A DNA stretch of 64,000 nucleotides from an uncultured Gammaproteobacteria bacterium (lineage in GTDB: Bacteria; Pseudomonadota; Gammaproteobacteria; HK1), in assembly GCA_958295835.1 (NCBI GenBank), contig OY282378.1, positions 4,985,694-5,049,693 of the forward strand. Direction: 5' to 3'. The notes below the pieces were generated by a model. It had not been told where the DNA came from. It saw only the letters and a program-made list of their open reading frames with translations, and ran no database searches. A program made the translations under genes and the position numbers. Numbering within the stretch: position 1 is the stretch's first letter; each line of letters begins with the position of its first letter. Below are positions 6,487 through 28,382 of this stretch, in pieces.

Positions 6487-9400
6487 TCAGCCCCGGCCAT
6501 TGCCGATTTCCCCGATACCGGCGGGCGTCGCAACGCTCACTCCCACCAGATCCACCAGCTCCGCCACCACCGCGACCTCGCCCTCGTCCATACCGGTCAG
6601 GACGATGGGCTCGAACTCGGGATTGTTCGGCTTCAAGGTGATCCTCGCATGCCGCCAGGAGTCGCCGTCCCCGGCCCTTTCGCTCTCGTAGCGCTTGACG
6701 GTGTACCGCGCTCCGGTCTCGGGATCGGTGGCGTCGCGGAGCTGGACGAGCACCGTCTTCCCTTGACGCGTGCCCTGCACGGGCGCGCGGAACAGGCCAT
6801 ACGCGCCGTCGGGAATCGCGGGCTCCATCGACCTGCCGGCGATTCGGGCGACGAACATCCCCGGCCTCAAGCGCCGCGCGCCACCCACCTCGACCCACTT
6901 CCAATCCTCCTCGGCTTCGACGCTCCGGGGATCGCCGAAGGCGCCGGCCGCGATCGCCAGCGGCACGAGGGGGATGCAGGTGACGTAACGCTCCTCGGGC
7001 CGCCCTTCGACGATACGGAGACCGCCGGGTTCGGAAGCCTCCGCCTCCCGGCCAACCTCATCCGGTCGAAGCGGCAGAGGCCCGATGGGCGGGGAGGAGC
7101 CATCGGTGCGTTCCGCCTCGATACCCTCCGGCCGAGCCTGTCGAAGCCCGGCGGGCAAGGGGAATCCGTCGGTGGGCTCGGATGCGATACCGTCCGACTC
7201 CGCCAGCCCGGTCGGCTTGTCCATGGCGGTCGGCGCGGACGGCCCAACCGACCCGGCCGGTTCCCTTGATTCGGACAGCCCGCCTCGCCCGATCGACCCG
7301 CCCCGCCCGGCCATCTCGCTTGGCCCGGCCACCTCACTCGGCCCGGCCAGCCCTGCCGGCCGCAGCCGCCGGTATGCTTCGGTGGCCATCCAGCGGCTGA
7401 CCGTCCGGTGGAAGGGCTCGTCGTTCATGTAGCGGATGAAGATCTCTTCGTTCTGGTCCATGCGCTCGGTGAACAGGCGCTCGATCAGGGTGTCGAACAC
7501 CAGCTCGAACTTGTCTTCGGGGTTGATCGCCGCCGTTTCGCGCAACGCATCGTCGGCCACCGCCGCCTCGACGATCTGGTCGAAGAAGAGTTGATCGGCG
7601 TCGTTGAAGTCCGTGCCGAAGCGTTCGTTGACGACGTCGATCAACCTCGACAGCGGCGCCGCCTGCTCGCGGGCCATGCCGCTGCCCACCTCCGTGGGTC
7701 CGTCGAGGGCGCGCGCGCCGCCCTGCCCGAGCGGAATCGATCCCTCGCTGATCTTCCGGAGACGGTAGTACTGAAGGCGCACGTCGTCGTCGAACTGGTA
7801 CGCGGGACCGGAGCGCCGGCGCGGGAGCTTCGCCGCCAGGTGGCGGAGCCATGTGTACAGGCGTTCGAGGTCCGAATCCTGGTAAGGGATCACCTGGCTC
7901 AGGAAGCCGTAGAGGTTGCGGAACGCCTGCACCTTGCCGCGCCACAGCTCGGCTTCTTCTTCCCTCTCCTTGTGCAACGCGGCAAAGCGCGACACCGCCG
8001 GGTCCAGCGCGGCGTTCATCGCCTGGTGGTCCCGCGGGCTCTGGCGCTGCCGGGGCTTGAAGAAGATCTTGCAGAAGCGCTCGACTTCCTCGCCGAGGTA
8101 GATACCGGAAGCATCGAGCTCTTCCCTGATCGCGTACATCCGGGCCGGGTCGGCCTCGTCGCCCATTTCGGCCCCTTCGTAGTACGTCTTGAACGCTTCG
8201 CGGATCTCGTCCCGGCCGTTCACGAAGTCGAGGACGAAGGTGTCCTCCTTGAAAGGATGGGTGCGGTTCAGCCGGGAGAGGGTCTGCACGGCCTGGATGC
8301 CGGCCAGGCGCTTGTCGACGTACATCGTATGCAGCAAGGGCTGGTCGAAGCCCGTCTGGTACTTCTCGGCGACGAGCAGCACCTGGTATTCCCCGGTCGC
8401 GAAGTGTTCCGGCAGCTCCTTCTCCCGGACGCCCTCGTTCATCTTCTCCTCGGTCCAGGCGAGGTCGGGGTCCCGGTCGTCCCGGACGACCCCCGAGAAA
8501 GCCACCAGCGACCTGATCGCGTAGCCCCGGTCCTCGATGTAGCGATCGAAGCTCTGCTTGTAGCGGACCGCTTCGAGGCGGGAGCCGGTGACCACCATCG
8601 CCTTGGCGCGCCCGCCGATCCGGTGGCGGGTGGCGGAGTGGAAGTGCTCGACCATCACCTCGGTCTTCTGCGCGACGTTGTGCGGATGCAGCCGCACGAA
8701 GCGGGCCAGGGCGCGGGCGGCCCGCTTGCGCTCCACGTTCGGATCGTCCTCGCAGGCCTTGAGCAGCTTGTAGTAGGTGGCGTACGACGTGTAGTGCTTC
8801 AGCACGTCGAGGATGAACCCTTCCTCGATCGCCTGGCGCATGGTGTAGCGGTGGGCGGGCTCGCCGCCGCGCCCGAAGACCTTCAGCGTCCTGTGCTTCG
8901 GCGTGGCGGTGAAGGCGAAGAAGCTCAGGTTCGCCTGCCGGCCCCGCTTGGCCATGCCGAGAAAGAGCGCTTCCAGGCCATCGGGGTCATTGGGGTCATT
9001 GGGGTCATTGGGGTCATTGGGGTCATTGGGGTCATTGGGGTCATTGGGGTCATTGGGGTCATTGGGGTCATTGGGACCATTGATGCCATCGCCCTCCAGG
9101 CCCTCCTCGGCCGCTCGCTTTCTCGCCTTTTCGCGCAACGCTTCGCCACCCAGCACCTCCTTCAGGGCGGTGGCCGTCTCGCCGCCCTGCGAGCTATGCG
9201 CCTCGTCGATGACCACCGCGTAGCGGCGGGTCGGCAGGGTTCCGGCTCTGCTCCCGAGCCCGAGCCCGGTCCCGATCCCGGACCCGAATCTGATCCCGCT
9301 TCCGGTATTCGTCCCACTCCCGGTCTTGGTCCCGGTCCCGGTACTGGTTCCGGACCCGAGCCCGCTCCCGCTTCCGGTATTGGTCCCGCTCCCGGTATTG

Positions 9401-10659
9401 GTCCCGGTCTCGGTACCGGCTTCGGCCGCCGCCTCCGTTCCCCGCTCCTCGGCCATCCTGAGAAGCTGGCGGGAGACGAAGGGAAACTTCTGGAGTGTGG
9501 TGATCACGATCGGCACCGCGCCTTCCAGCGCCTCGGCGAGCTGGCGCGAGCTCTCGTCGATCTTCTGCACCACGCCCCGCTTGTGCTCGAACTGGTAGAT
9601 GGTGTCCTGGAGCTGGCTGTCGAGCACCACGCGGTCCGTGACCACGATCACGCTGTCGAAGACGCGGGCGTCCTGCGCATCGTGCAGCGAGGCCAGACGG
9701 TGCGTGAGCCAGGCGATGGTGTTGCTCTTGCCGCTGCCCGCGGAGTGCTCGACCAGGGCGTTGTGCCCGACGCCCTCGCGCCGCGCCGTGTCCACGAGCC
9801 GGCGCACCGCTTCGAGCTGGTGGTAGCGGGGGAAGATCATCGTCTCGACCTTCACATTGCGCCCCTTGTCGTCGCGCTTCTCCCCGGTCTGGAGGTGGAC
9901 GAAGCGCGCCAGCAGGTCCAGCAGGCTGTCGCGCGCAAGGACTTCCTCCCAGAGGTAGGCGGTGCGGTAGCCGCGTCCTTGCGGGTCGGGCGGGTTGCCC
10001 GCGCCCCCGTCGCAACCCTTGTCGAAGGGCAGGAAGTGGGTCGCGGCGCCGGCGAGCCGGGTGGTCATGAGCACGGACTCGGTATCCACGGCGAAGTGGA
10101 CGAGCGTGCGCCGCTTGAACTCGAAGATCGGCTCGCGCGGATCGCGGTCCCGCCGGTACTGCCCGCGGGCGTCCTCGGCGGTCTGCCCGGTGAGCGGGTT
10201 CTTCAGCTCCAGGGTCGAGACCGGTATCCCGTTCAGGCTCAAGGTGACGTCGACGGACTGCTCCGAGCGCGGCGAGAAACGGAGCTGGCGGGTGAGCCCG
10301 ACGCGGTTCGCGGCATAGCGCGCCTCGAGCTCCGGGTTGAGCGCGTGGGCCGCCTTGAAGAAGGCGATACGCAGCGTCCGGCCGTAGCACTTGAAGCCGT
10401 GGCGCAACGTCGCCAGCGCGCCGTTCCGGTCCATCCACTTGCACAAGTCGGCAAGGACCTGCTCGCCGGTCCGCTCGCCGAGCAGCGCTTCCAGCCTCGT
10501 CCATGCGTCCGGCTGGGTCTCGCGGATGAACCCGAGCGCGACCTCGGGAAAGACGGCGCGCTCGCGGTCGAAGCCGCGGCCGGGGACGGAGACGTATCCG
10601 TTCGCCAGGAGATGGACTTCGATGACGGTCTCGAAGGCGGATTCGCCGGTTCGATTCAT
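6487..10659 (-). CDS. hsdR: Type I restriction enzyme R subunit with C-terminal S24/LexA-like domain
   Basis: A 1390-residue protein. Near residue 150 is the HsdR nuclease motif ([10 protein letters not shown]). The SF2 motor has Walker [14 protein letters not shown] (about 304-316), DEAH as [13 protein letters not shown] and motif [16 protein letters not shown]. Family members are usually near 1000 residues; the excess comes from a glycine-rich insert before the DEAH strand (9236-9420), an (NDP)10 insert after it (8983-9081) and a C-terminal extension of about 290 residues. The extension is a Gly/Pro/Glu-rich linker, then [11 protein letters not shown] and GARYTVKRY, the Ser and Lys motifs of LexA/UmuD/phage-repressor S24 peptidases. 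The ATG at 10659 has GGAAAGGA just upstream; a longer frame to 10773 is unlikely. It is the last gene of the minus-strand island; its HsdM and HsdS lie at 25.8-27.9 and 24.5-25.8 kb. Confidence 0.92.
8983..9081. repeat. 9-bp tandem repeat (ggggtcatt) x10 inside hsdR
   Basis: Ten perfect copies of ggggtcatt (8983-9072) plus one degenerate copy. Read on the coding strand they give ten consecutive Asn-Asp-Pro triplets between the DEAH strand and motif III of HsdR. Because the unit is a multiple of three, gain or loss of copies keeps the frame. Confidence 0.97.
9236..9420. repeat. Imperfect cccggt-type repeat encoding a Gly/Ser/Thr-rich insert in hsdR
   Basis: Degenerate 6- and 12-bp units around cccggt/cccgct produce an insert of some 60 residues alternating Gly with Ser, Thr or Asn just before the Walker B strand of HsdR. 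It is in frame and absent from ordinary HsdR proteins. Confidence 0.9.
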
Positions 10660-11006
10660 GTCCTTTCCGCCGCCGGACATGCCTGCTTCCCGTTCGTTCC
10701 CATCCACTCGATTCGCAAGGAACACCGTTCCCCGGCCGTCCACGGCGCTGGCCGGGGGCGCCCGCGATTCCACGGGGGCAGGTTTCGCGGAGCCTGTGCC
10801 CGCGAAAGCGGGTAGCGGGAGCCGCCGCGCCTGTCGTCATTCCCGCGGAAGCGGGAATCCACTTCAATCAATCTCATTGAGATCCCGTGTTTTCTGCAAC
10901 CAGCGCGTGACCAGGCAGGAATGTCATGCAACCGGCAGGTCCATATCCCTTTCCGCCGCCGGACATGCCTGCTTCCCGTCCATCCGGTTCGCGCGTGAAC
11001 CATCCT
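10660..11006. repeat. Repeat-rich spacer: duplicated hsdR leader plus REP-like palindrome
   Basis: The 32 bases at 10662-10693, which on the minus strand hold the hsdR Shine-Dalgarno region, recur unchanged at 10948-10979, and similarity continues weakly for some 30 bases beyond. Between them a REP-like palindrome (10840-10858, cattcccgcggaagcgggaat) is flanked by the same tccacttc tail as the copy at 16599. No gene is evident here. Confidence 0.8.
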
Positions 11007-12818
11007 TCACGGCGATACCGGTTGTTCCTCGCCCGGATTGGCGTGATCGAAGATCTCCCTCAGCAGATCGAGTTTCCCGCCCACCTCTGCCGGTATGGAG
11101 GAAGGATCGACGAACCGGACCAGCCGGTGAAGCTCGCCCTTCCTCAGCAGCATCGCATGTCCGAGCCTTTCCGCAAGACGGCGAAAGAACTCCTCGGCGA
11201 AGTCGCTGAGCTTCACCCGTTCGGTCCTCGCCTCCCACAGCAGCCGCGCCGCGTCGGCCCTCGCGGCCTTCCAGGTGTCGAGATCCTGCTCGCGGCCGTC
11301 GAACACACGTTCCAGGATCAACGCATCGAGCACCTCTTCGGACGTATCGTGAACTTCACCGAGAAACAGGGGCAAGTCCTTGTAGTGTTCGGCGACCTGC
11401 CTGCGCAGCACCTCGGGGGTGACGAAGTAGTTTTCGACTTCGTAGCGCTTCCAGTAGACGACGTTGAGCCCGCCTTCGTTCGAATCCGATCGTGCGCCGC
11501 CGTCGTTGTCCAGAATCGCCAGGCCCCGCAGCCCGGGTATCATCTCGCGCAGGGCGAAGAAGTGCTTCCGGGGCGTCACCCCGAACCCTCCTTCCACGCG
11601 CTCCAGCTCGGCTTTCAGATCGTCGGGGTCCGGGTAATTGTCCTGTATGTAGAAAGCGTTGATCCGTTGATCCCACACGTCCGCCGCCCGATGGCCCAGG
11701 CGTTCGGCCAGGGCCTGCAGGACGGCGAGATCCGTTCCGCCCTCGACATACAGGACGTAACCCCGTTCCAGCGCCCTGACGTAGTGCTCGGCGCCGTAGT
11801 GCTTGAGCGCATTGCGGATATCGGTCCTGGCGGCCAGATCGTCGGCCCGCCCCCGCAACAGCAGCGTGAGATGGTGGTCCAGCGCCTCGTCGAGAATCAC
11901 TTCCGAATGGGTCACCAGCACGACCTGCGACTCGTTCCGGGCCGCGATCTCCCGCAAGAGCACATAGACCTGCTTCTGCCGGAGGATCTCCAGGTGCGCG
12001 TCCGGCTCGTCGATCAGCAGCACGCTCCGGCGATGCGAATAAAGGTAGGCGAAGATCAGGAGCATCTGCTGGAATCCGCGGCCCGCGAGAGAGACGTCCA
12101 GCGGCTCCCGCACGTTCGCCTGCCGGTAGAAGAGATCGATGCTGCCACGCCCGGTTTCGGTCGGGTCGCCCAGCTCGACCGAGAACAGTCGTGACATCAA
12201 CTTGGCGATGCGCTGCCAGTCTTCCGGCGCGTCCTTGAACACCAGGAGACACAGGTTGCGAAGTACCTGGGCGGTCTGCCCCTGCCCCAACAGGACGTCG
12301 ATGCGGCCGGGTTGGAGGATCGGTTCCTCGGTATCGAGGCCCGACATCGGGTAGAGCAGCGCCACGTTCAACCCCGCCGCGGCCTCGACGACCTCCGGTT
12401 TCTTGAGGGTCGCATCGTCGGGCGTGCAGTAGACCAGCTCGTCTCCCTGGTTCCGAAAGCGCATCGTCACCGGCTCGACCTTGTTCCGGTGCAGGATGCC
12501 CACGGTGATCAGGAGAGGAACGTCACGATTGCCGCGACGTACCGCCGCGTTGTGCCAGAAGTAGCGGGTGCGCCGGACGGGAACCGAGACGATGTTCAGC
12601 CGGTTGAGCGATGTGGCCGTCCGCTCCCTGGGCGTCGATTTCCCTTTCGCTTCGAACCACGTCCCGACCGCCTGCGACCAGAGTGCGATCGCCTGGATCG
12701 CCGTGGTCTTCCCGCAGTTGTTGGGGCCGATGAGCACCGCTGGATGATCGAGTTCGATCCGCTGCCTGTCGCCGAAATGCTTGAAGTTTTGAATCTCGAT
12801 GTAGTGGAGCAGCCTCAC
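11007..12818 (-). CDS. OLD-family ATPase with C-terminal TOPRIM domain
   Basis: A 603-residue protein with an SMC/RecF-like ATPase: Walker A GPNNCGKTT (31-39), a signature-like SLAGRGFQQM (about 244-253), Walker B SVLLIDEPDAHLE (266-278) and the H-switch VLVTHSE. A TOPRIM domain follows, with the acidic residue in YVEGGTDLAVL (E360) and the DxD pair in AILDNDGG (438-440). Overcoming-lysogenisation-defect (OLD) proteins are ATP-regulated metal-dependent nucleases, several of which defend against phage. The GTG start at 12818 has AGGAG 8 bases upstream. No GajB-type helicase is adjacent, so it would be a single-gene (class 1) OLD. It lies between DUF4276 and hsdR in the same direction. Confidence 0.85.
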   Translation of the reverse strand: MRLLHYIEIQNFKHFGDRQRIELDHPAVLIGPNNCGKTTAIQAIALWSQAVGTWFEAKGKSTPRERTATSLNRLNIVSVPVRRTRYFWHNAAVRRGNRDVPLLITVGILHRNKVEPVTMRFRNQGDELVYCTPDDATLKKPEVVEAAAGLNVALLYPMSGLDTEEPILQPGRIDVLLGQGQTAQVLRNLCLLVFKDAPEDWQRIAKLMSRLFSVELGDPTETGRGSIDLFYRQANVREPLDVSLAGRGFQQMLLIFAYLYSHRRSVLLIDEPDAHLEILRQKQVYVLLREIAARNESQVVLVTHSEVILDEALDHHLTLLLRGRADDLAARTDIRNALKHYGAEHYVRALERGYVLYVEGGTDLAVLQALAERLGHRAADVWDQRINAFYIQDNYPDPDDLKAELERVEGGFGVTPRKHFFALREMIPGLRGLAILDNDGGARSDSNEGGLNVVYWKRYEVENYFVTPEVLRRQVAEHYKDLPLFLGEVHDTSEEVLDALILERVFDGREQDLDTWKAARADAARLLWEARTERVKLSDFAEEFFRRLAERLGHAMLLRKGELHRLVRFVDPSSIPAEVGGKLDLLREIFDHANPGEEQPVSP

Positions 12819-13007: not shown

Positions 13008-13604
13008 TCACAACGCCCTCAATTTATTCAGGAACGCCTTGGCGTGCGGACAGGCGGCTTCGACTTGGGCGGGATCGACTTGCGCCAGCAACTCGAACGA
13101 GACTTTGCCCTTGGAATAGGATTTACGACATGAAGCGGTCGCACGTTCGAGTGCTTCGAAGACCCTCGATTTGGGCACATCTTCCAGATTGGGCCATGCT
13201 CTGAGCGCGTTCTCTCCGAACCCCGTGCCGAAGTAGCTCCGCAACGCCTCGCGGTCCGCCAGAAACCAGGTTTCCATGACCTGGACCATCAGGAATGCCC
13301 GATCGTCGCCCGCGTTGGCGGGCCGGTGCCAACCGTCACGGGCGTGCAAGTGCTGCCAGACCGAGTGTCCCGGCGCAACCGGACCTTCGCTGTCCACGAG
13401 CAGGAACGGGACCGTGCCGGGAGAGCTGTCCGAGACGGCGGTTGCGAAACGGTCGAAGGTCTGTCGGCGCCCGGCGCCCCGAACGATCTTCGTCCTGCCA
13501 CCGACGCCGGCGGAGTCGAAGAATTTTTTCCATCCCTCGCGAAAGCGGGCACGAAGATCCTTGCCCTCTCCACCGCCCTCGATGTACAGCGTTGCCGTCA
13601 CCAT
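13008..13604 (-). CDS. DUF4276 family protein
   Basis: A 198-residue protein beginning TATLYIEGGGEGKDLRARFR, with FLLVDSEGPV, a middle segment MVQVMETWFLADREALRSYF and C-terminal KGKVSFELL motifs characteristic of DUF4276. The acidic strand pattern (IEGG...VDSE) is reminiscent of TOPRIM-like nuclease cores, which is inference. Its start overlaps the end of the upstream AAA ATPase gene by 7 bases (ATGGTGA), so the two are coupled and probably form one functional unit, an ATPase sensor with a partner effector. Such ATPase-effector pairs are common in anti-phage systems. A second, broken DUF4276 gene lies at 17796-18300. Confidence 0.75.
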   Translation of the reverse strand: MVTATLYIEGGGEGKDLRARFREGWKKFFDSAGVGGRTKIVRGAGRRQTFDRFATAVSDSSPGTVPFLLVDSEGPVAPGHSVWQHLHARDGWHRPANAGDDRAFLMVQVMETWFLADREALRSYFGTGFGENALRAWPNLEDVPKSRVFEALERATASCRKSYSKGKVSFELLAQVDPAQVEAACPHAKAFLNKLRAL

Positions 13605-14941
13605 CGGTTTCCGCCCAACTCGCCCGACGTCCAGAGATCACCAAGCCTGTAGTCATTCAACCACTTCGCCAGATCGTCTTTGTCGAGACGCCGCATCTCC
13701 GTCTGTCCATCGTGCTTTTCGCAGACGACGACACTTTCCGGCTGATCCGTCAGCGTGTCGACAAATACGTCCGAGTGGGTCGTCACGATGAGCTGAGTAC
13801 GCTCGGATGCCTCTCGCATCAAATCGCTCAACGTCGGCAGCAGATCCGGATGCAAGCCCAATTCCGGCTCCTCGATACAGATCAAGGGAGGTGGTTCGGG
13901 ATGCAACAGGATCGCCAGCAGGCAGAGATAACGTAACGTCCCGTCCGAGAGGCGGGTAACCGGGATCGAGCGGTTGCCGAACTCTTCCAGGAACAACGCC
14001 ACCGTGCCGCCGGTCACGGGGCACTGTATGTCCACGATGCCGTCGAACAGCTTGCTCAATGCGGAGAGGAATGACTTCTTATGCGTTCCATGCAGTTGCG
14101 AGAGCACAAGCGGCAGGTTCTCGCCGCCTTCGTCCAGAAAGTCGCTACGCGCATGTGCGTTGCAGGGTTGGCGCAGTTTCGCGTGGGGACCGAACGACCA
14201 GCTTCGGTAGAGACGAATTTGTTCATATTGATGTTTCAAATACCAAAGCGCTGGATAATCCATCATGGCAAAAGAATAGAGCAAAGAATTTTCCTGTTCG
14301 AACGTTCTGAAGAATTCGACAACTCCACGATTTTGATCGATGAACATAGTTGGTGTATGAACATTCACATTCCTGGATTTCGACGACTGCGGTGACTTGG
14401 CTTTCGCCTCCCTCGACATCTCTCGTTCGTCCCATTGGGGAGGGCGATAATAGCGGTACCCAGAAGGATCTCCTGAATGCTTTTCCGAGGGCTCGATCTG
14501 TTCGTCAGCGACTAAAAGCAGCCCCCCCTGGTCGGCCAAGGTCAGCGGGGGAGGGCGATAATAGCGGTACCCAGAAGGATCTCCTGAATGCTTCTTCGAG
14601 GGCTCGATCTGTTCGTCAGCGACTAAAGGCCGCCCCCCTTGGTCGGACAGAGTCAGGGAATGTCGCAACGTCCTGGTCGGTGGGTAGTCAACCATGGCCT
14701 CCAGGGCGATCGAATCCGGCGCCTCCAGCCCCTTCCACAACCACTCCCGAACACCTCCCATACCTGAGATTGGTTCCGAGATACCACGCGGAGCGGCCTG
14801 GAACAGCGAGATCGCCTCCAGCAAGTTCGATTTCCCCGAACCGTTCGGGCCAATCAGGACGTTCAGCGGCTTCATCGGCAAGTCAATCCCCGCCGGTCCG
14901 AAAGACAAGAGGCCCGAAAATTTCAGCCTGTGAAACAACAT
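13598..14941 (-). CDS. AAA ATPase (SMC/AAA_21-like) paired with DUF4276
   Basis: About 447 residues. Walker A is GPNGSGKSN (31-39), Walker B LICIEEPELGLHPDLL near the C-terminus, followed by a D-loop/H-switch VTTHSDVFVD. This is the compact ABC-type ATPase layout found in OLD/PARIS-like defence ATPases. Start chosen at 14941 (ATGTTGTTTCAC) because GGGG lies about 8 bases upstream; two in-frame upstream codons are possible. The protein carries a 37-residue tandem duplication (LVADEQIEPS...YRYYRPP twice), encoded at 14441-14662. It follows the HipA-like gene by about 40 bases and overlaps the DUF4276 gene. Confidence 0.8.
   Translation of the reverse strand: MLFHRLKFSGLLSFGPAGIDLPMKPLNVLIGPNGSGKSNLLEAISLFQAAPRGISEPISGMGGVREWLWKGLEAPDSIALEAMVDYPPTRTLRHSLTLSDQGGRPLVADEQIEPSKKHSGDPSGYRYYRPPPLTLADQGGLLLVADEQIEPSEKHSGDPSGYRYYRPPQWDEREMSREAKAKSPQSSKSRNVNVHTPTMFIDQNRGVVEFFRTFEQENSLLYSFAMMDYPALWYLKHQYEQIRLYRSWSFGPHAKLRQPCNAHARSDFLDEGGENLPLVLSQLHGTHKKSFLSALSKLFDGIVDIQCPVTGGTVALFLEEFGNRSIPVTRLSDGTLRYLCLLAILLHPEPPPLICIEEPELGLHPDLLPTLSDLMREASERTQLIVTTHSDVFVDTLTDQPESVVVCEKHDGQTEMRRLDKDDLAKWLNDYRLGDLWTSGELGGNRW
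14441..14662. repeat. 111-bp in-frame tandem duplication in the AAA gene
   Basis: Bases starting agggcgataatagcggtacc at 14441 and again at 14552 begin two nearly identical 111-bp copies. The copies differ at only a handful of positions (for example SKKH versus SEKH in the protein), so the duplication is recent and preserves the frame. Confidence 0.95.
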
Positions 14942-14980
14942 GTTCATTCCCCGTTCAACGTGTCCCAGCACGACGATCCA

Positions 14981-16336
14981 CTACGCGGCGTTCGAGAGCT
15001 TCAGCCCCAGGCAGCGTCTTGCGAGATCCGTTTCCAATGCCTTGAGCCTTGCCTCGTACGCCTCGCCGTGTGCCTTTCCGACCTCGTCCTTGACCTTGCA
15101 CTTGCGCACGGCGTCGCTCAGCGCATCCTGGAGCCTGTTCGCCATTCCCTTCACGATTCGCACCGCTTCTTCGGCCCCGAGTGTCGTCTTTCCGGCAAGT
15201 GTGCCGGCCGCTTCGGCCCCGAACGCATCCGGCGTCTCCGCGCCTCCTGCCGGCAGCGCAAGCTGCCTGGTGATCCATTGCGCTCGGCCGCTCGAACTCG
15301 ACGCGTCGTAGAGCGGCGCGAGCCGGATCGGCCCGCGCAGGCGCGGGTGCCGTATCCCCAGATTCTTGCGGTGCATGTCGGTGTGCCCAAGCAGAACGCA
15401 TGCCCCGATGGCTTCGATCCCTTTCTCTACTTCCCCCGCCGCTCCCTCGCGCGCCAGCAGCGCCAGCAGATCGTCGAGTCCCGGATCCATCCGCTCGAAC
15501 GCGAACTTCTCCCGCCGACCCACTCCGGCGGCCTGTGCCCATTCCTCTTGGTGCCTCCGGCCGATGCGTCCTTGCGACGGTGTCCGGATCCGGTCGCTTC
15601 GCTCGCTGACCACGACTTGCAGTCCGTCGATGACGCGCGCCCATGTCGAGGCAGCGCGGACGCCCGCGAGCTTCAGCGTGGTCTGTACGAGGCTTTCCAT
15701 CGCCGCCTCGCCCGGGTTCCTCGGGTCGTCCTCCACTTTCACGATGTGGGTGCTCAGCAGGCCGTCCGCCGGCCGCGGCGGCCGCCAAACCCCTCCCTCC
15801 ATGTCCTCCTCCAGGTGGACACCGAGTTTCCCCTTCATTCCGCTCAGCGACGTCTGCCCGAGCTTCGGGTCCCAGTCCAGGTGCCGCCTGCCGTTCGTGA
15901 CTTCGTAGTCGGCCCGGCGCAGCACGTCCGCGAGGTACTTCCAGCCACGGTAGGCTTCCAGCGTCGGGGCGTCCCATTCGATCTCCCGCCCGTCCCCGTC
16001 GAGAGCCCGGAACGATACGCCACCCGCGTATTCGCGATCCGCGTTTCCCCAGATCCTTGCGGCCACGTCCGGTTCCCGCACGTTCGCCTCGCCGTACATC
16101 TTCAGGAAATGCTGCGCCCGCTCGCGGTATATGGTGCTTGCCTCTCCTTCGGGGATGAGGTGCTCCAGCCACTCCCGCACCGCTTCCGCATCCGGCTTCA
16201 TCTCCCTCCACCCGGCCGAAAGCAGGGAGACATCCCCGACGTGCTCGACGCGACTTTCTTGCAATGCCGGTCCTTGCCCGTTCACGATTCGCATCAGCGG
16301 GGTCCCCAGCAGTAGCACTTCGAGCGTTCCGTCCAT
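14981..16336 (-). CDS. HipA-like serine/threonine kinase
   Basis: A 451-residue protein. The N-terminal subdomain has VREWLEHLIPEGEAS, equivalent to the HipA N-lobe cap; LSGMKGKLGV is the glycine-rich substrate/ATP loop; LSTHIVKVEDD precedes the lobe junction; GHTDMHRKNLGI supplies the catalytic Asp and Asn; and LAPLYDASSSS matches the HipA metal-binding motif. HipA kinases phosphorylate aminoacyl-tRNA synthetases and stop growth, normally restrained by a HipB antitoxin. No HipB-type gene is adjacent; the nearest DNA-binding protein is the XRE/ImmA protein upstream. The start at 16336 is favoured by AAGGAAG nearby. It may act as a toxin or as part of the neighbouring ATPase operon. Confidence 0.75.
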   Translation of the reverse strand: MDGTLEVLLLGTPLMRIVNGQGPALQESRVEHVGDVSLLSAGWREMKPDAEAVREWLEHLIPEGEASTIYRERAQHFLKMYGEANVREPDVAARIWGNADREYAGGVSFRALDGDGREIEWDAPTLEAYRGWKYLADVLRRADYEVTNGRRHLDWDPKLGQTSLSGMKGKLGVHLEEDMEGGVWRPPRPADGLLSTHIVKVEDDPRNPGEAAMESLVQTTLKLAGVRAASTWARVIDGLQVVVSERSDRIRTPSQGRIGRRHQEEWAQAAGVGRREKFAFERMDPGLDDLLALLAREGAAGEVEKGIEAIGACVLLGHTDMHRKNLGIRHPRLRGPIRLAPLYDASSSSGRAQWITRQLALPAGGAETPDAFGAEAAGTLAGKTTLGAEEAVRIVKGMANRLQDALSDAVRKCKVKDEVGKAHGEAYEARLKALETDLARRCLGLKLSNAA

Positions 16337-16598
16337 CAGTTCTTCCTTTCCCGCATTTGCCGGCCTCACGACCTCAGCCCGTTGCACCTGTGATCAGCAG
16401 TGGCGGCGGCGCGGGAGCGCCTGCATTGAGCAACAAGGGTCCAGCGGCCACACGTCTGGATTACGGAGTGGGTTACGGCCCACCGGCGCTCACCGGAGCG
16501 CCGAGCTTCCGAGCACGAACCGTACTCGCTCGCGCCGCAACATCTCGAAGGGGCTCGATTTCGAAAGGACCCGATTGTTGCATAAATCAAAGATCTGT

Positions 16599-16748: not shown

Positions 16749-17741
16749 TTACGCGATCACCCTAAGGCTGGTACCGAGTTTGCGAAAGGTTTCCATTTTC
16801 TTGAAACCGAGCAGACGGAACGCTTCGGTGAACGACGACCGGCCCTCAAGCGTATTTGCGATCATCGCATGGGCAAAACGCTTGCTGACACGGGCGCCAA
16901 GGGTGAGGTAGAAGTTTCCGTCGTCTCCCCGGGGCAGACGGCGTATCCGATCCAGTTCGGACCTGTAAGCGGCCCGGTACGCTTCGGGGGTAAGTGCACC
17001 GGCATCGCGAATCCGGCGCAGCACGACAAGCGTACTCACCTTGAAGCGCCGCGCCAGCCGGTCCAGTTCATCGCGAAGCTCGGCGTCGGCATCATGTTCC
17101 CGGCGGAAAACGGCGAGCGGCGCCAGAATCTCCGCCGCGACCAGATTGCACCAACGCTCCACTTCGTGCCCCGGCACGTGTCGCGCATCGCTGTCGGAGA
17201 GTGCCGATTCGCCGAGCCAGAGGTGGGCGAGCTCATGCGCCAAGGTGAACATCTGCGCCGCCTTCGTGTCGGCGCCACTGATGAAGACCAGAGGCGCCAA
17301 GTCGTCCACCAGTGCGAAGCCCAGCGTTTCGCGGATGCCTTCGGCTACCGCTTCGACCTCGTGGGTCAGGCGTACCGAGCCGACGAATTCCAACGGCCGA
17401 TCGCCCGTCACCTGCGCGAAGTCGCGGTACCACGCTTGGCGCTGCTGGCACAGATAGAGCGTATCGAGCAGGTCCGCACTCGGGCGGCCAATGGGTTCAT
17501 CGGCGATGGTTCGGAAATCGGGAACGGGAAGGTGTTCTTCCGGTGGCTCGGGCAAGAGCAGCAAGCCCACGGGTGTGTGGGTTGCCTTCGCGAAGGCTTC
17601 AAGCTGCCGGAGTGTCGGCTGTTTTTCCCCCCGCTCCCACGCCGGAATTTGGGGAAACCGTTCCACCAGGGCGGCGAGCTCGACTCGTGCCCGTTCACAC
17701 GCCCAACGCAGCAGCCTGGATTCAACCTGTACGCGGCTCAT
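16749..17741 (-). CDS. XRE-HTH protein with ImmA/IrrE metallopeptidase domain
   Basis: A 330-residue protein: an N-terminal XRE-like HTH (AWERGEKQPTLRQLEAFAKA) and a zinc-peptidase domain with FTLAHELAHLWLG, the HExxH of ImmA/IrrE proteins. The C-terminal segment (VSKRFAHAMIANTLEGRSSF) is typical of the long-form subfamily often paired with a DUF4411/PIN toxin. Such proteins cleave or bind repressors and control mobile elements or toxin systems. A GTG at 17753 is an alternative start. No DUF4411 gene is adjacent: downstream come the GIY-YIG scrap, REPs and the HipA-like kinase; upstream is the broken DUF4276 gene. Confidence 0.85.
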   Translation of the reverse strand: MSRVQVESRLLRWACERARVELAALVERFPQIPAWERGEKQPTLRQLEAFAKATHTPVGLLLLPEPPEEHLPVPDFRTIADEPIGRPSADLLDTLYLCQQRQAWYRDFAQVTGDRPLEFVGSVRLTHEVEAVAEGIRETLGFALVDDLAPLVFISGADTKAAQMFTLAHELAHLWLGESALSDSDARHVPGHEVERWCNLVAAEILAPLAVFRREHDADAELRDELDRLARRFKVSTLVVLRRIRDAGALTPEAYRAAYRSELDRIRRLPRGDDGNFYLTLGARVSKRFAHAMIANTLEGRSSFTEAFRLLGFKKMETFRKLGTSLRVIA

Positions 17742-17795
17742 GCCGATTTTCACATCAATACAATTTCCGACAGGTGAACGCTGCTGCCTCGGAGT

Positions 17796-18317: not shown

Positions 18318-19443
18318 TTACTGCCCCATCAATATCTTATCTCGGAAGCCATCGTTCAACGCCGCCCGGATACGCTTCTTCCTGACACTGATCTTCGTTG
18401 GCTCGCGCTTCAGCAGATTAACCGCCACATGTCGAATCACTCCCATATTATGCGGTGCGTTGCCTCGACGAATCCGACTCTCGTCCTCACGGAACGTCAC
18501 ATCCAATCTCCAGTGCAACTCATTCTCGATTCCCCAGTGCGAACGCACCGCTCTGCGAAATGACTCCACATCTTCGAGCGACGTGATGAAATCCCGCTGC
18601 TCAATACCGACACGCCCACCACGATAGCGCTCCGATTCCACCATCCCGACCGCTCTCAATCCATTCCACTTCTTCACACCAGACAATGCACTCAAATCAG
18701 TGGACAAAAAATAGCTCCTGTACTCTACCCGTCCGTGACCATCCTCCGCCGTCTCGTCGTTTTGAATCTCCTTACACTCGAAATCCTTCTCTCGTGCAGC
18801 ATCAAAATACTGCCGAACCTCCTTGTCCAATTGCTCCTGGTTCCCCTTCACCGCCAACACGTAATCCCCTCCCCCTTCCTTGACCTGCTTCGCAATCGCT
18901 CGTTGGCATCCCATCGCATCCAGCGTCACGATACGCCCCGATAATTCCAGCTTGTCCAGCAGCTCCGGCACCGCCGTTATCTCGTTCGACTTCTCCTCCG
19001 TCTTCACCTGTCCAAGCACCACTCCATTGCCACACGCCCACGCACTGACCATATGCAACGCCTTCACTCCTCGCCTGCGGTCGTGGGAACGCCTCTGCGT
19101 CTTGCCGTCCACCGCGATGATCTCGCCACCACTCAACTTCATCACATCCTCCATCCAACTCATGAAACACTCCTGAAATCCACTCACCGACAACGCCGAG
19201 ATGATTCGCGCAATCATGTCATCCACCGGTATCCCATTGGCCAACGGCACATACCGGCGAAGCCACTCCAGCTTCGTGCGTCCAAATTCCTCAATGTCAC
19301 TCCATCCCTCCGCGCCACTGACCACCGCACACACGCACAACACGATGACATCAATCAATTCATGCTTCTTGTTCCTAATCGATTCGCGGATCCTCCAGCT
19401 CCGAGAAATACTCGAGCAAACTTTCAGGTGCCGTCGTGTCCAT
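18318..19443 (-). mobile_element. ISAs1-family transposase with one frameshift
   Basis: The main frame (19358-18318) encodes the ISAs1 DDE transposase: MIDVIVLCVCAVVSGAEGW, GGEIIAVDGKTQRRS, LDAMGCQRAI, VKGNQEQL and RSHWGIENELHWRLDV. The true start is at 19443 (MDTTAPESLLEYFSELEDPRID) in another frame. One extra base at about 19377-19378 separates the two; without it the protein would read PRIDRNKKHELIDVIV, the usual family sequence. The element is therefore probably inactive unless the base is an assembly error. I could not define its terminal inverted repeats. It is lower in GC than its neighbours. Confidence 0.85.
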
Positions 19444-21894: not shown

Positions 21895-24120
21895 TTATTC
21901 CTTAACTTGGCGTAGCCGGAACCAATGATACAGAAGTGGACCCCGATTATTGGACAAGGCGATAAGTGTCCTCCGCCCCCGTTGGTTCCCCACTTCACGC
22001 TGCCTTGGGCCATGAGCCGCTTCAGCATACACCGCATCGGGTGTCCTGCGCCCAAGGCCCTGATGGCGGCGCTCGGCATTGTAGAACCGGAAGTAGCGGC
22101 CCAGTCCCGCGCGAGCCGCGGCCACACCCTCACAGGCGTACAGATACACCTCCTCGTACTTCACACTTCTCCACAGCCGTTCCACGAACACGTTGTCCAC
22201 CCGTCGCCCCTTGCCGTCCATGCTGATGGCAATGTCGGCAAGAGGAGCACACCGCACATGAGCAACGATACTGTGGTTTCGCTGGCGGCGCCAGCGCTGG
22301 TTCCCGACCCCCTCACGGAGCTTCTGCGCTCCGGGGCGCGGCGGCTGGTCGAGGCTGCGGTCCGGGCGGAGTTCGAGGAGCACCTGTCGTCGTTCGGGCA
22401 CGAGAAGCTGCCCGACGGGCGCCAGCGGGTGGTGCGCAACGGGCGCCTTCCCGAGCGCAAGATTCTCACCGGGCTCGGTGAGGTGGACGTGCGGGTCCCG
22501 AAGGCGCGCAGCCGCTCGGGCTCCCCGGAGCCGTTCCGCTCCTCGGTGGCGCCGCCTTACGTTCGGCGCTGCGCGAGTCTCGATGCAGCGATTCCGTGGC
22601 TGTACCTGCACGGGGTGTCCACCGGGCAGATGCGTCAGGCGGTCGCCGCGCTGGTGGGCGAGCAGGCCGCGCGCGGGCTCTCGGCGAACGTGGTCAGTCG
22701 GCTCAAGCGGAGCTGGGACGAGGAGTACCGGCAGTGGTGCCGTCGGCGCCTGGACGACGAGTGGGTCTACCTGTGGGCGCACGGTATCTACAGCGCCCTT
22801 CGCGGCGATGGCGAGCGGCTATGTGTGCTGGTGGTCATCGGCGTGAACGCCCGCGGGGAGAAGCACTTCCTGGCCATCGAGGACGGGGTTCGTGAGTCCA
22901 CCCAGAGCTGGCGCGAGGGGCTGCTAGCGATGAAGCAGCGCGGCTTCACCCGCCCGGCGAAGCTCGCCGTGGGCGACGGGGCGATGGGGTTCTGGGCAGC
23001 GCTGTCGGAAGTGTTTCCATCCACCCGCACGCAGCGCTGCTGGATGCACAAGACCGGGAACGTCCTGAACTCCCTCCCCAAGTCCGGCCAGGCGAAGGCC
23101 AAGCAGGGGCTGCACGAGATCTGGGGGGCCGAGACCCGGGCGAAGGCCGAGCGCGCCTTCGACCAGTGGCTCGAGCGCTACCACGACAAGTACCCCAAGG
23201 CCACCGCCTGCCTGGCCCGCGACCGCGACGAGCTGCTCGCATTCTACGACTTCCCCGCCGCACACTGGACGCACCTTCGAACCACCAACGTCATCGAATC
23301 GGCCTTCGCCACGATCCGCCACCGAAGCTCGCGAGCCAAGGGCTGCGTCACCCGAAAGACCATGCTCTCGATGGTCTACAAGATGGGTCGGTGCGCGGAG
23401 AAATCCTGGCGCCGGCTGCGTGGCTTCCGCCACCTCGCCAAGGTCATCAAGGGAGTCCAGTTCAACGACGGCATCGAGGTCATCAAGGACAGCAGAGCCG
23501 CCGCATGAACAACCCCCCGTACACCAGATTTGACAATAGCTCGCCGGTGAACTGTGCCCCCGGTCGGTGTTGAATCTCTCCGGACTCCCAAAGTGTGCGA
23601 GCGCGTCCTCAACCGCCTTGATGCAGAAGTCGCCGTTGAGGGTATTGGACAGCCGCCAGGCGAGCACCTTGCGGCTGTACCAGTCCATGACCGCGACCAG
23701 GTAGAGAAACCCGCGGGCCATCGGAAGGGAGCAGATGTCGGCCGCCCACACCTGATTGGGACGCTCCACGGTGAGCTCCCTCAGCAGATAGGGATAGACC
23801 TTGTGACCCCGGCCCGCTCGGTTCGTTCAGGGCCGTGGGTACAGCGCCTCAAGCCCCATCAGGCGCATCACACGCCGCACCCGCTTGCGGTTGGCCTTCA
23901 CCCCGCGTTCCCCGAGCCAATCGCTCAATCGACGGCTCCCGTAGAACGGGAACTGAAGATGGGCCTCGTCGAGCAGGCGCATGGCCTCCAGATCCTGTTC
24001 CGAGACCGGCGCTGGCTGGTGGTACACGCTCGAACGCGACAGCGCCAGCAGCTCGCACTGATGCGTCACCGCCAATGAGTGACCCCGCTCGATCATGGCC
24101 TTGCGCCGGGGGCGGCTCAA
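21895..24120 (-). pseudogene. IS3-family OrfB (integrase-fold transposase), interrupted
   Basis: The N-terminal part reads from 24120 (HTH_21 region SVYHQPAP, FPFYGSRRLSDWL, LEALYPRP) to a premature TGA at 23827-23829. The same frame then continues GHKVYPYLLREL, NQVWAADICSLPM and NGDFCIKAVEDAL to RFNTDRG, where a missing base near 23560 shifts the frame. The IS256 insertion follows, and the C-terminus resumes at about 22235 (IAISMDGKGRR, NVFVERLWRSVKYEEVYLY, FYNAERRHQGL). Three independent lesions show the copy is dead. Confidence 0.85.
22258..23508 (+). CDS. IS256-family transposase
   Basis: A 416-residue mutator-type transposase. Motifs include VRNGRLPERKILTGLGEVDV, AIPWLYLHGVSTGQM, KLAVGDGAMGFWAAL (catalytic Asp), RCWMHKTGNVLNSLP and TTNVIESAFATIRHRSSRAK. 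The frame is open upstream to 21925, but the ATG at 22258 has AGAGGAG 8-12 bases upstream and gives the normal family length. The coding sequence is intact. It lies inside IS3 orfB in opposite orientation; bases 23515-23539 (ending tttgacaatag) probably form the right terminal repeat, whereas the left end is less clear. Confidence 0.9.
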   Translation: MSNDTVVSLAAPALVPDPLTELLRSGARRLVEAAVRAEFEEHLSSFGHEKLPDGRQRVVRNGRLPERKILTGLGEVDVRVPKARSRSGSPEPFRSSVAPPYVRRCASLDAAIPWLYLHGVSTGQMRQAVAALVGEQAARGLSANVVSRLKRSWDEEYRQWCRRRLDDEWVYLWAHGIYSALRGDGERLCVLVVIGVNARGEKHFLAIEDGVRESTQSWREGLLAMKQRGFTRPAKLAVGDGAMGFWAALSEVFPSTRTQRCWMHKTGNVLNSLPKSGQAKAKQGLHEIWGAETRAKAERAFDQWLERYHDKYPKATACLARDRDELLAFYDFPAAHWTHLRTTNVIESAFATIRHRSSRAKGCVTRKTMLSMVYKMGRCAEKSWRRLRGFRHLAKVIKGVQFNDGIEVIKDSRAAA

Positions 24121-24529: not shown

Positions 24530-25822
24530 TCATCCGGCACATCCGATGTCGGTCCGTCCGGTGACTGCGGCGGCGATGAGAGCGGAGCGGCGTTCCTTGA
24601 TGATCGCGATGGTTCTCTTCGCCGCTGATTGAAGGAAATCGAATCGCCCCGTGGAAACGGTGATGTGATCGAGGATCGCCGATTGCTCATCCGGCGGAGG
24701 AATCGGTACACGGAGGTTCGCGACCTGTTCGCACGTAAGGGCGCCCTTCGTGCCGCCGGTGTCGTCACTGATGCTTCTGAGAAAATCGTAGGCGGCAAAC
24801 AGCGTCCATCTCAAGAACCATGGCCGGAGGCGGGAGCATTCCGGCTGGATGAACGCGAGATGCTGATTGATGGTGGAGTCGATCGAGAGAACTACTGCTC
24901 TGCCTCGTGTTTTCCCCTGACCGGTAATGGCTATCAGAACACTGCCGGCCTTTACCAGAGGCAGATGGCATTCCTGAACTGCGTGTGCAGTCACGAACTG
25001 ATCGGCGCCGATGACTTCGGATTGGTTCACGACACCGCTGTTGCTCCAGGGAATCCGGCCATCGGTCCAGTACGCGGCTTTGTTGCGGTTCGGGGTCGAG
25101 CCGTTTCCGATTGATGCGGCGTGTCCGAGCTTCCAGATTTCCCAGTGCGCCGGAATCTGACCCAACCACGGAATGCCGGAATCCCGCATGGCGGCGTCGG
25201 GGTCGAGACCACGGGTGACGGCGCGAGTGATGAGCGCTTGGCGTTTCTCGGCCAGCAGTCTCAGAAGGCGTTCCTTCTCCGCTACCAAGGCGTCCAGCCG
25301 CGCCGTCTCACGGTCGAGGTAGTTGGCGATGGCGCGTTGCTGTGCAAGAAGGGGAACCGGAACACGGTAATCCCGAACGAAGTCTTCGGGGACGCGCTTT
25401 TGACCGGCCGCTCCAAACATGGCGGCTTCGCCAAGCCTGCGGAAGCGGTCACTCACCGTGATGTAGTACAGGAAGCGTGCTTCGATCTCGTTGCCGAGGT
25501 TCAGCACATGGAGTTCGGTTGTTCCGAAGCCGACGCCGTTCAGGGTTCCGCGCACCAGAGCACCCTTGCCGTTTTCGAAACACGGCGTGATCTTGGCTAC
25601 CAGGACGTCGCCGTCGAAAAATTGGGTGTAACCGTTCCGAACATCGTCAATGTCCCGGATGATCGAACAATCGAGCTCTCCCTGTTCTCCGATATTCTCC
25701 ATCGGCAAGAACGTGACCTGGGCCGCGCTAGCCAGAACTTGCCGTTGCTCATCCGAAAGCCCACGCCGCGTAAGAAAACGCATACGCTTTGCGGGCCACG
25801 TTTGCTCGGTGGCGACGTTCAC
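24530..25822 (-). CDS. hsdS: Type I restriction-modification specificity subunit
   Basis: A 430-residue HsdS with two target-recognition domains, about 1-165 (YTQFFDGDVLVAKITPCFEN, EDFVRDYRVPVPLLAQQRAI) and about 225-390 (PAHWEIWKLGHAASIGNGST, QVANLRVPIPPPDEQSAILD), each followed by a conserved helix (LDALVAEKERLLRLLAEKRQ and the equivalent at the C-terminus). It determines the bipartite recognition sequence of the HsdR2M2S enzyme. The GTG start overlaps the hsdM stop (GTGA), indicating coupling. The IS3 right end lies only about 45 bases from its stop, where the IS insertion now separates it from the rest of the locus. Confidence 0.93.
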   Translation of the reverse strand: MNVATEQTWPAKRMRFLTRRGLSDEQRQVLASAAQVTFLPMENIGEQGELDCSIIRDIDDVRNGYTQFFDGDVLVAKITPCFENGKGALVRGTLNGVGFGTTELHVLNLGNEIEARFLYYITVSDRFRRLGEAAMFGAAGQKRVPEDFVRDYRVPVPLLAQQRAIANYLDRETARLDALVAEKERLLRLLAEKRQALITRAVTRGLDPDAAMRDSGIPWLGQIPAHWEIWKLGHAASIGNGSTPNRNKAAYWTDGRIPWSNSGVVNQSEVIGADQFVTAHAVQECHLPLVKAGSVLIAITGQGKTRGRAVVLSIDSTINQHLAFIQPECSRLRPWFLRWTLFAAYDFLRSISDDTGGTKGALTCEQVANLRVPIPPPDEQSAILDHITVSTGRFDFLQSAAKRTIAIIKERRSALIAAAVTGRTDIGCAG

Positions 25823-27867
25823 CCCACCACCTCCCCCAGCAACCTCACGATCTCCGCCTCCGCCTTCTTCAGATCCGCGTCGATCTCCTCCAGCGGCCTC
25901 GGTGGCGTGTACTCGTAGAAGTGCCGGTTGAAGTTGATCTCGTAGCCCACCCGATCCTTGGCTCGATCCATCCAGGCGTCGGGGACGTGGGGGCGGACCT
26001 CGCGCTCGAAGTAGTCGTCGACGTCATCGGTGAGGGGAACGTTCTCGAAGTCGCGCAGCCCGGTGTCGGGCTCGAAGCCTTGCTCCCGCCCGCCCTTCGC
26101 GACGGGCTCGGCTTCCGGGTCCTTGTGGGTGAATACGTCACGGAACAGCCGCTGCTCCACCTTCTTCCAGCGCGAGCCGCGTTCGTGCAGCAGGTCCGCA
26201 ATGCGCTCCCATACGGCGTTCCAGTCGCGCATCGGCTTGCGGCCGAGGGCCTTGTCGATGACCTGGACGTCGTCCAGCAGGAAAGGGCAGGCGTCGAGGA
26301 AGCGGGCCTTGTCGTCGATCGTCATCCGGTAGCGGAGCCGTAGCGGGCGTTCGACGGTGACGCGGGTGTAGCCGAAATCGGCGTTCCTGAAGATCTTCGA
26401 GCGCCCGCCGTCCCGGAAGAGGCCGTAGAGGCGCACGATCTCGTCGATCTGCCCGTCCGGGAGATGCCGGCGCTTGTCGCCGAGGCTTCGCCTGCTCTCC
26501 TTGCTGCCGCCGGAGGCCGAGAGATCGCGTGCGTCGAAGAGCTGGATCCTGCCCCGGCGGCGCTCCTCCTTGCGGTTGGTGACGATCCAGACGTAGGTGC
26601 CGATGCCGGTGTTGTAGAACATCTGCTCGGGCAGGGCGACGATCGCTTCGAGCCAATCGTTCTCGATGATCCAGCGACGGATGTTGCTCTCGCCCGATCC
26701 GGCGCCGCCGGTGAACAGCGGGGAGCCGGAGAACACGATGGCGAGCCGCGAGCCGTGCTTGTGCTCCTTCGGGCGCACCGGCTCGAACTTGGCGATCATG
26801 TGCTGGAGAAAGAGGAGGGAGCCGTCGTTCACCCTCGGCAGCCCGGCCCCGAAGCGGCCCGCGAAGCCCCGCTGCTCATGCTCGCGCCGGACCTCGCCCT
26901 GCTGGCGCTTCCAATCGACGCCGAAGGGCGGGTTGGTGAGGAAGTAGTCGAAGGCGCCGGCCGCGAACCGGTCCTCGATGAGGCTGTCGCCGAGGCGCAC
27001 GTTGTCGCCGCGGCCGTTGTGGTCCACCTGCTTCATCAGCATGTCGGAGGCGGCGGTGGCGTAGGCGCGCTTGTTGTAGTCCTGGCCGTAGACGTAGAGC
27101 CGGGCCTCCAGGTGGTGGTCGCGCAGCCAGCTCTGCGCTTCCGCCAGCATGCCGCCGGTGCCGCAGGCGGGGTCGAGGAGGGTGCGCACCACGCCGGGGG
27201 TGGCGAGCAGCGCGTCGTCGTCGATGAACAGCAGGCTCACCATCAGCCGGATGACCTCGCGCGGCGTGAAATGGTCACCCGCGGTCTCGTTGGCGAGCTC
27301 GTTGAAGCGGCGGATCAGGTTCTCGAAGATCAGCCCCATCTGCGCGTTCGGCACCGTGTCCGGGTGGAGATCGACGTTGCGGAACTGCGAGACCATCATG
27401 TAGAGGATGTGCGATTCGCGCATCTTCTCGATCTCGGCCTCGAACTCGAAGTACTCGATGAAGATGCGGCGCACGTCGGCCGAAAAGCCCTGGATGTAGC
27501 TCACCAGGTGCTGGGCGATGTGGTCGGGGTCGCCCTGGAGCTTTTCGAAGTCGAGCGGCGAGCGGTTGTGGAAGCGCTGGCCGGCGGCCCGGTTGAGGAC
27601 GCTGTCCAGAGCCTCGCCCCTGAGCTTGCCGCCCTTGCGCCGTTCGTACTCCGCCAGCACCCTGGCCTTGGTGGGCGCGAGCACGCAGTCGAAGCGGCGC
27701 AGCACGGTCATCGGCAGCATCACCCGCTCGTACTGCGGGGGGCGGTAGGGGCCGCGCAGCAGGTCCGCGATCTGCCAGATCAGGTTGGAGAAGTACGCAT
27801 GGTCGGGCGCCGGGTGGGCGGCGCCGGACACGCCGGCGCGGGATGTGCGCGGCTTGCTGCGCTTCAT
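25819..27867 (-). CDS. hsdM: Type I restriction-modification DNA methyltransferase subunit
   Basis: A 682-residue N6-adenine methyltransferase. The N-terminal helical HsdM_N bundle is followed by motif I LLDPACGTGGM (230-240) and motif IV FLTNPPFGVDW (309-319). It has the long C-terminus of the subfamily (ENVPLTDDVDDYFEREVRPH, YEINFNRHFYEY) that contacts HsdS. The start at 27867 has GGGGAGG 6 bases upstream; an in-frame ATG at 27912 overlapping the GNAT stop (ATGA) is the alternative. It modifies host DNA and is essential for both methylation and restriction complexes. Confidence 0.93.
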   Translation of the reverse strand: MKRSKPRTSRAGVSGAAHPAPDHAYFSNLIWQIADLLRGPYRPPQYERVMLPMTVLRRFDCVLAPTKARVLAEYERRKGGKLRGEALDSVLNRAAGQRFHNRSPLDFEKLQGDPDHIAQHLVSYIQGFSADVRRIFIEYFEFEAEIEKMRESHILYMMVSQFRNVDLHPDTVPNAQMGLIFENLIRRFNELANETAGDHFTPREVIRLMVSLLFIDDDALLATPGVVRTLLDPACGTGGMLAEAQSWLRDHHLEARLYVYGQDYNKRAYATAASDMLMKQVDHNGRGDNVRLGDSLIEDRFAAGAFDYFLTNPPFGVDWKRQQGEVRREHEQRGFAGRFGAGLPRVNDGSLLFLQHMIAKFEPVRPKEHKHGSRLAIVFSGSPLFTGGAGSGESNIRRWIIENDWLEAIVALPEQMFYNTGIGTYVWIVTNRKEERRRGRIQLFDARDLSASGGSKESRRSLGDKRRHLPDGQIDEIVRLYGLFRDGGRSKIFRNADFGYTRVTVERPLRLRYRMTIDDKARFLDACPFLLDDVQVIDKALGRKPMRDWNAVWERIADLLHERGSRWKKVEQRLFRDVFTHKDPEAEPVAKGGREQGFEPDTGLRDFENVPLTDDVDDYFEREVRPHVPDAWMDRAKDRVGYEINFNRHFYEYTPPRPLEEIDADLKKAEAEIVRLLGEVVG

Positions 27868-27908
27868 GGTCCGCCTCCCCGCGTTCCCGGTGGCTTTCGG
27901 GGATCGTT

Positions 27909-28382
27909 TCATCCGGCCCACAGATCCCTGGCGATGGAGACGGCGTCCTCCCGGCCCCGGTAGAACCCCCGGATCGTCCTCGTTTCCCGGTAGCCCAGAG
28001 CACGGTAGAAGCCCCGCGCCTCCGGATTGTTCACCCGTGCTTCGAGCCGGATGAGCCCGACCCCCGCGGTGAGGGCGGTGGCTTCCAGCCAGCGCACGAG
28101 GGCGGCGCCGACCCCCGTGCGGCGGCGTTGCGGATGCACCGCGAACAGGAGGAGGTGGGCCTCGTCGTCGCCGTACTCCATGATGCCGAAGCCCGCGAGC
28201 GCGGGGCCTTCGCGGGCGACGGCGACGTTGACCGCCGGATGCCGGATGCAGGCCAGCACCCGCGTCTCGGTCCATCGCCAGCCGAGCCCCTGCTCGATGC
28301 AGTCCCGCGACATCTCGGCGATCGGCCGGGCGTCGTCGTCGCGGGCGAGCCGGATCTGGTAGTTGAGCGCCTGGCGCGGCAT
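27909..28382 (-). CDS. GNAT-family N-acetyltransferase (RimI-like)
   Basis: A 157-residue single GNAT domain. Acetyl-CoA-binding motif A is VHPQRRRTGVGAALVRWLEA (Q/RxxGxG/A), preceded by strand LLLFAV and followed by ARVNNPEARGFYRALGYRE, the usual motif B. It transfers an acetyl group to an amine, the substrate being unknown. It lies directly upstream of hsdM on the same strand and overlaps or closely abuts it, so it may be the first gene of the restriction operon. Whether it has a role in restriction is unknown. Confidence 0.85.
   Translation of the reverse strand: MPRQALNYQIRLARDDDARPIAEMSRDCIEQGLGWRWTETRVLACIRHPAVNVAVAREGPALAGFGIMEYGDDEAHLLLFAVHPQRRRTGVGAALVRWLEATALTAGVGLIRLEARVNNPEARGFYRALGYRETRTIRGFYRGREDAVSIARDLWAG

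Follow-up and report, generated by a model that had tools for sequence, protein, structure and literature searches.

The window, by which we mean the whole 64,000-nucleotide stretch of an uncultured gammaproteobacterial genome that was analysed, carries on its reverse strand a restriction locus in which the reading frame of hsdR continues into an S24 domain. The relevant features are:

6487..10773, (-): hsdR::S24, restriction subunit of 1428 amino acids with a C-terminal S24 domain
7360..10659, (-): HsdR core, with HSDR_N nuclease, Walker A, DEAH and SF2 motor
7003..7359, (-): low-complexity linker of about 120 residues from the HsdR core to the S24 domain
6541..7002, (-): S24 autopeptidase domain, residues ~1258-1411
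6943..6951, (-): predicted cleavage site AA/G, between Ala1276 and Gly1277 (AAG is residues 1275-1277; P side LAIAA)
6829..6831, (-): Ser1315, predicted nucleophile (GRSMEP)
6694..6696, (-): Lys1360, predicted general base (YTVKRY)
11007..12818, (-): AAA_21/OLD-like ATPase, immediately upstream of hsdR
24530..25822, (-): hsdS, specificity subunit
25819..28275, (-): hsdM, true start later than 28275

The hsdR open reading frame (10773..6487, reverse strand) comprises 1428 codons in one unbroken frame, although translation may in fact begin at Met39, near 10659. The main part of the protein, which PADLOC assigns to a type I restriction enzyme, contains both an HSDR_N nuclease domain (residues 154-242) and an SF2 motor with a Walker A motif (GSGKSN, at 346) and a DEAH box (at 523); Pfam finds, in order, HSDR_N, SWI2_SNF2, a T1R_D3-like domain and a terminal Peptidase_S24. 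The hsdM and hsdS partners of a type I system both lie in the window on the same strand as hsdR, and the HsdM is 77-79% identical to the HsdM of two other hsdR::S24 operons. By its sequence, the window protein is thus a type I restriction subunit, for which restriction activity is predicted.

Near residue 1138, the point at which unfused relatives stop too, the core gives way to about 120 residues of the low-complexity linker that the sequence-only reading had described; this linker is short in most relatives. That reading had placed the additional C-terminal residues at 6487-7330; an extra tail does follow the core, and the upper limit, slightly off frame, should read 7329. Two low-complexity inserts break up the core. 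We also observed tandem repeats within hsdR, namely a 9-bp unit present 10.8 times at 8979-9075, which encodes NDP repeats, and 18/72-bp units at 9265-9419, which encode TGTGSG-like stretches; both are in frame, both occupy loops that are short in relatives, and their copy number could be variable between strains. The fused HsdRs of L059 and L064 are free of such repeat inserts. The number of repeats in the linker is unequal between the window and the sister genome G003, with the frame kept in both. The G003 copy (L041:8254-10410) lacks the N-terminal half of HsdR, being present only from residue 745 onward, and is adjoined by a remnant of the start of hsdM, an arrangement that could be explained by a deletion taking out hsdM, hsdS and half of hsdR.

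The gap between hsdS and hsdR holds transposases and further defence-like genes, and because these separate the two genes, insertions appear to have broken up the operon of the window. They include an ImmA-like M78 peptidase (16752-17753), a HipA_C protein (14984-16387) and two transposases (18321-19358 and 21928-23505). Also in this gap, an AAA ATPase (13598-14971) and a DUF4276 protein (13008-13604) resemble PADLOC HEC-01A/HEC-01B (E 2e-140 and 1e-66), and the ATPase gene of this pair contains an internal 111-bp duplication (14437-14646). The pair was weighed as a possible component of the system and rejected, the ATPases of other fused operons being different proteins. For the ATPase at 11007..12818, no similarity could be detected to its counterparts in the two other operons compared, and its tie to the restriction system is uncertain.

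The identity of the tail is supported at the level of profile, fold and catalytic residues. Peptidase_S24 (PF00717) matches residues 1303-1405 with E-values of 1.8e-6 for the whole protein and 1.5e-7 for the tail alone; the latter is modest for a single-sequence match, and the scores of 31.5-33.6 bits lie above the curated cut-off of 23.3. The same profile is matched by all 65 aligned relatives of the tail. An AlphaFold2 model of the tail, built from the 65-row alignment, reached a pLDDT of 81 and a pTM of 0.79, and Foldseek (E 5.8e-5) placed LexA on top, followed by lambda repressor and UmuD'. VIA-align gave Z-scores of 12.0 for Thermotoga LexA (129 residues aligned at 3.3 A, a LexA-type fold), 11.6 for E. 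coli LexA, 10.9 for RecA-bound lambda CI and 9.8 for UmuD'. A phmmer search of PDB sequences with the tail alone returned no match, and the profile of 65 relatives returned from the PDB only weak matches, every one of them LexA (E 0.16 or worse).

The predicted active site has the elements of an S24 autopeptidase, with a dyad of Ser1315 and Lys1360 and a scissile bond between Ala1276 and Gly1277. The lysine is conserved in 86 of 86 aligned S24 domains; so is the serine, a count that is partly built in since the pattern used in the scan included the serine, while the lysine and the Ala-Gly site lay outside the pattern. Ala-Ala-Gly is found in 79-80 of the 81 domains having that stretch, the departures being L122 (AAS), L129 (VAT) and the decayed L045 (TGG). 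Among controls from the same phylum, LexA-type proteins mostly show AA/G preceded by V or I, and one of five UmuD-like proteins has AA/G; the genome's own LexA-like protein reads VPA/G. In sequence, the site of the defence-module proteins therefore resembles that of LexA. The window protein has HsdR in place of the N-terminal DNA-binding HTH of LexA, and its S24 domain is fused to HsdR rather than being, as in UmuD, a small free partner of a Y-family polymerase. Taken together, sequence and model confirm the tail as a genuine S24 domain of the LexA/UmuD type with predicted self-cleavage. The fusion proposed from sequence alone is accordingly upheld by the open frame, the Pfam profile, the AlphaFold2 model and the fold comparison (Z of about 12 to LexA), none of which refuted it, and the Ser and Lys motifs named there are present and conserved among relatives.

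To see how widely this type of S24 domain occurs, 84,980 species genomes were scanned with a six-row S24 alignment, which yielded 428 relatives, and we examined 82 loci, namely the best 80 of the 428 together with two strong matches on viral contigs. In 35 of these 82 loci the S24 domain lies in frame behind the same HsdR family, mostly straight after core residue 1138. These fusions come from at least ten phyla (Acidobacteriota, Pseudomonadota, Myxococcota, Gemmatimonadota, Thermodesulfobacteriota, Chloroflexota, Planctomycetota, Actinomycetota, Binatota and Rhodothermota). Because the same fusion with the same junction recurs in independent genomes of other phyla, chance or an assembly error is very unlikely. 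In the relatives, hsdM and hsdS lie upstream of the fused hsdR, often with a RecF/PtuA-like ATPase as well. A 58.5-kb IMG/VR contig (L128), which may be a mobile element, carries an hsdM-hsdS-ATPase-hsdR::S24 set.

In a tree of HsdR cores, a single clade (98/94) unites 26 fused proteins, and next to it stand unfused HsdRs of plasmids and isolates; the fused rows came from the S24 probe, so losses within the clade may be undersampled. Two further fused proteins branch elsewhere, which requires at least two changes, and the mixing of phyla inside the fused clade suggests horizontal transfer of the fused HsdRs. The fusion is rare in a sample of 398 genomes of the phylum: of five close HsdR cores checked there, none bore the tail. 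Relatives of the tail were absent from isolate phages and represented by one weaker match in plasmids, which leaves a recent origin from a phage repressor unsupported. Two other arrangements were noted along the way. At L046:7305 onward, an HsdR of the unfused type from the same bacterial family carries another C-terminal addition with an AlbA_2/Schlafen-like look (EFKSTLRWN), and at L056:8746-9429 a 227-residue ORF joins an apparent VapC/PIN toxin start to an S24 domain of this type via an HsdR-like linker.

The same module is also present on other enzymes, which the sequence-only reading had not noticed, just as it had not named the cleavage site. It is found at the C-terminus of type ISP/IIG restriction-modification proteins (L051, L077, L085, L096, L116, L121 and L126; L116 continues for 200 more residues beyond it), of DruE-like helicases of ~1975 residues (L101 and others) and of the ResIII helicase L129. 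In two HindI-like HsdRs, L082 and L118, it lies instead between HSDR_N, which ends at 212, and the motor, whose SWI2_SNF2 domain starts at 459 and 493, with the cleavage site at residues 325 and 329. Two XRE-type regulators bear the module too, L079 (by profile) and L092 (by sequence). A second restriction-type ORF in the genome of the window (L045:3565-5427) has S24 in its N-terminal part with a broken site (TGG); its motor parts are apparently missing, and it is probably related to the L082 architecture and has decayed. A tree of S24 domains groups partly by host enzyme, with most branches weak, and leaves the number of transfers between enzymes unsettled. Tentatively, and with somewhat less than even confidence, we suggest that a transferable S24 module, attached to no fewer than four classes of DNA-acting defence enzyme (two kinds of type I HsdR, DruE-like helicases and type ISP/IIG enzymes), provides a general link at the post-translational level between DNA damage and the shut-down of immunity, by creating a protease tag on the enzyme that bears it.

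For HsdR itself, we see about an even chance that the S24 tail is a built-in circuit breaker working by LexA-type self-cleavage, with a trigger and a degradation step that we infer. Damage to host DNA, for example by restriction of unmethylated self sites, would give rise to RecA-ssDNA filaments, and these would stimulate cleavage of HsdR between Ala1276 and Gly1277. The HsdR fragment would then have the C-terminus -LAIAA (-LKAAA in most relatives), and since such an -AA end resembles both the ssrA tag and the N-terminal fragment of LexA, ClpXP could destroy HsdR and restriction would stop. Genes for RecA, ClpX (667 bits) and a LexA-like protein are all present in the genome of the window, whose tmRNA tag is ANDDNYALAA; the likeness to LAIAA/G is one of sequence. 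Cleavage alone would not disarm the window HsdR, because the whole core remains. The off-switch thus relies on the degradation step, since loss of the tail leaves motor and nuclease intact, a requirement missing from the sequence-only reading.

It has been previously reported that LexA-like proteins have ClpXP degrons hidden beside their cleavage sites (PMC5742171), that ClpX substrates include both LexA fragments (PMC10584840) and that restriction alleviation of EcoKI consists in the destruction of HsdR by ClpXP (PMC11109961; PMC12707154). On the strength of such LexA-like degrons and of the fate of EcoKI HsdR, we propose that cleavage makes the fused HsdR a ClpXP substrate. The fusions would differ from EcoKI, because alleviation there is independent of LexA cleavage, as seen in a lexA1 strain (PMC11109961), and because no terminal degron was found in its HsdR (PMC4231737). 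An off-switch is independently supported by L082 and L118, because their site lies between nuclease and motor; in such HindI-like HsdRs cleavage itself would also sever the two. Two considerations bear on this reading: the -AA motif may be retained for the chemistry of cleavage and not as a degron, and phage infection could form RecA filaments too, so that defence would be shut down just at an unsuitable moment, which counts against an off-switch. The proposal that a fused S24 domain cuts restriction off after DNA damage is therefore upheld as to domain and motifs; as to role, restriction alleviation is the best-supported of the possibilities and remains plausible, and the phenomenon is wider than was first proposed.

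Other roles for the domain can be weighed against the same evidence. Self-cleavage of the S24 domain might be set off by something else than RecA (a phage protein, for example, mechanical strain as the motor translocates, or a different stress) and adjust restriction by another route. We regard this as unlikely, although a common fold does not prove a common trigger, and each of the host enzymes either translocates DNA or is a restriction enzyme that binds it, and could in this way register what it is doing. A precedent is IrvR, an S24 protein with a RecA-independent trigger (PMC7101444). Against it, both the fold and the site resemble those of LexA, and among the closest structures are LexA and lambda CI in complex with RecA.

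The reverse arrangement, in which the tail keeps HsdR inactive until RecA filaments raised by phage lead to cleavage and free an active motor-nuclease, would fit the C-terminal position of the tail in the HsdR and DruE fusions, where its removal leaves the enzyme whole, and has a precedent in UmuD, which is activated by self-cleavage. It seems improbable to us, since cleavage of L082 and L118 would part nuclease from motor, the -AA on the P side is LexA-like and untypical of UmuD, and close HsdR relatives exist that have no tail, so that the core needs no release. We give similarly little credence to the idea that the domain recruits HsdR to DNA coated with RecA, or holds two HsdRs together, as a docking or dimerisation element for which cleavage is unimportant. 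S24 domains of LexA and UmuD do dimerise and bind RecA filaments, and the DruE of Druantia acts on ssDNA as a dimer (PMC13192584), but the cleavage site and the lysine hardly vary from phylum to phylum or from one host enzyme to another, the site being altered only in the three proteins named above, and this argues against it. That the fusion is functionless, a passive chimera or one in decay, is very improbable: insertion elements do interrupt the window locus, its core has repeat inserts and the G003 copy has lost its N-terminal half, but the clade of 26 fused HsdRs retains intact catalytic residues across many phyla.

It has long been asked what keeps type I enzymes from killing the cell that makes them, and for hsdR::S24 the answer may lie within the protein, in a switch of the LexA type whose cleavage site can be read from the sequence and adjoins a candidate degron. 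A module of this kind on unrelated defence enzymes would couple the DNA-damage response to immunity at the level of protein and not via transcription. In a search that covered mainly open-access papers we found no report of S24 on HsdR, Druantia or type ISP enzymes, which is weak evidence of novelty. Both parts belong to known families; the novelty appears to lie in joining them, in the range of defence enzymes that bear the module, and in a cleavage site that comes with a candidate degron.

Compared with known systems, the tail is closest to the C-terminal S24 domain of LexA, with which it shares the fold, the Ser-Lys dyad, an Ala-Gly bond after hydrophobic-Ala-Ala and an LPLV-like stretch upstream of the site; unlike LexA, it has no DNA-binding HTH or repressor role and sits C-terminally on a restriction motor of ~1140 residues. 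UmuD and phage CI repressors share fold and dyad, whereas UmuD stands free as a small protein of ~140 residues, and Ala is missing from P2 in four of the five UmuD-like sites. The HsdR of EcoKI is not known to bear an S24 domain. It resembles the window protein in HSDR_N, SF2 motor, hsdM and hsdS partners and, as proposed here, control by proteolysis, and differs in that its degron was not found (PMC4231737), whereas the self-cleaving domain of the fusion would create one. Finally, a plasmid operon of Ketogulonicigenium vulgare (hsdM-hsdS-ATPase-HNH-hsdR) has the same HsdR family, with cores 72-78% identical, and the same operon order, but its HsdR stops after the core, where the fused proteins continue into the S24 domain.
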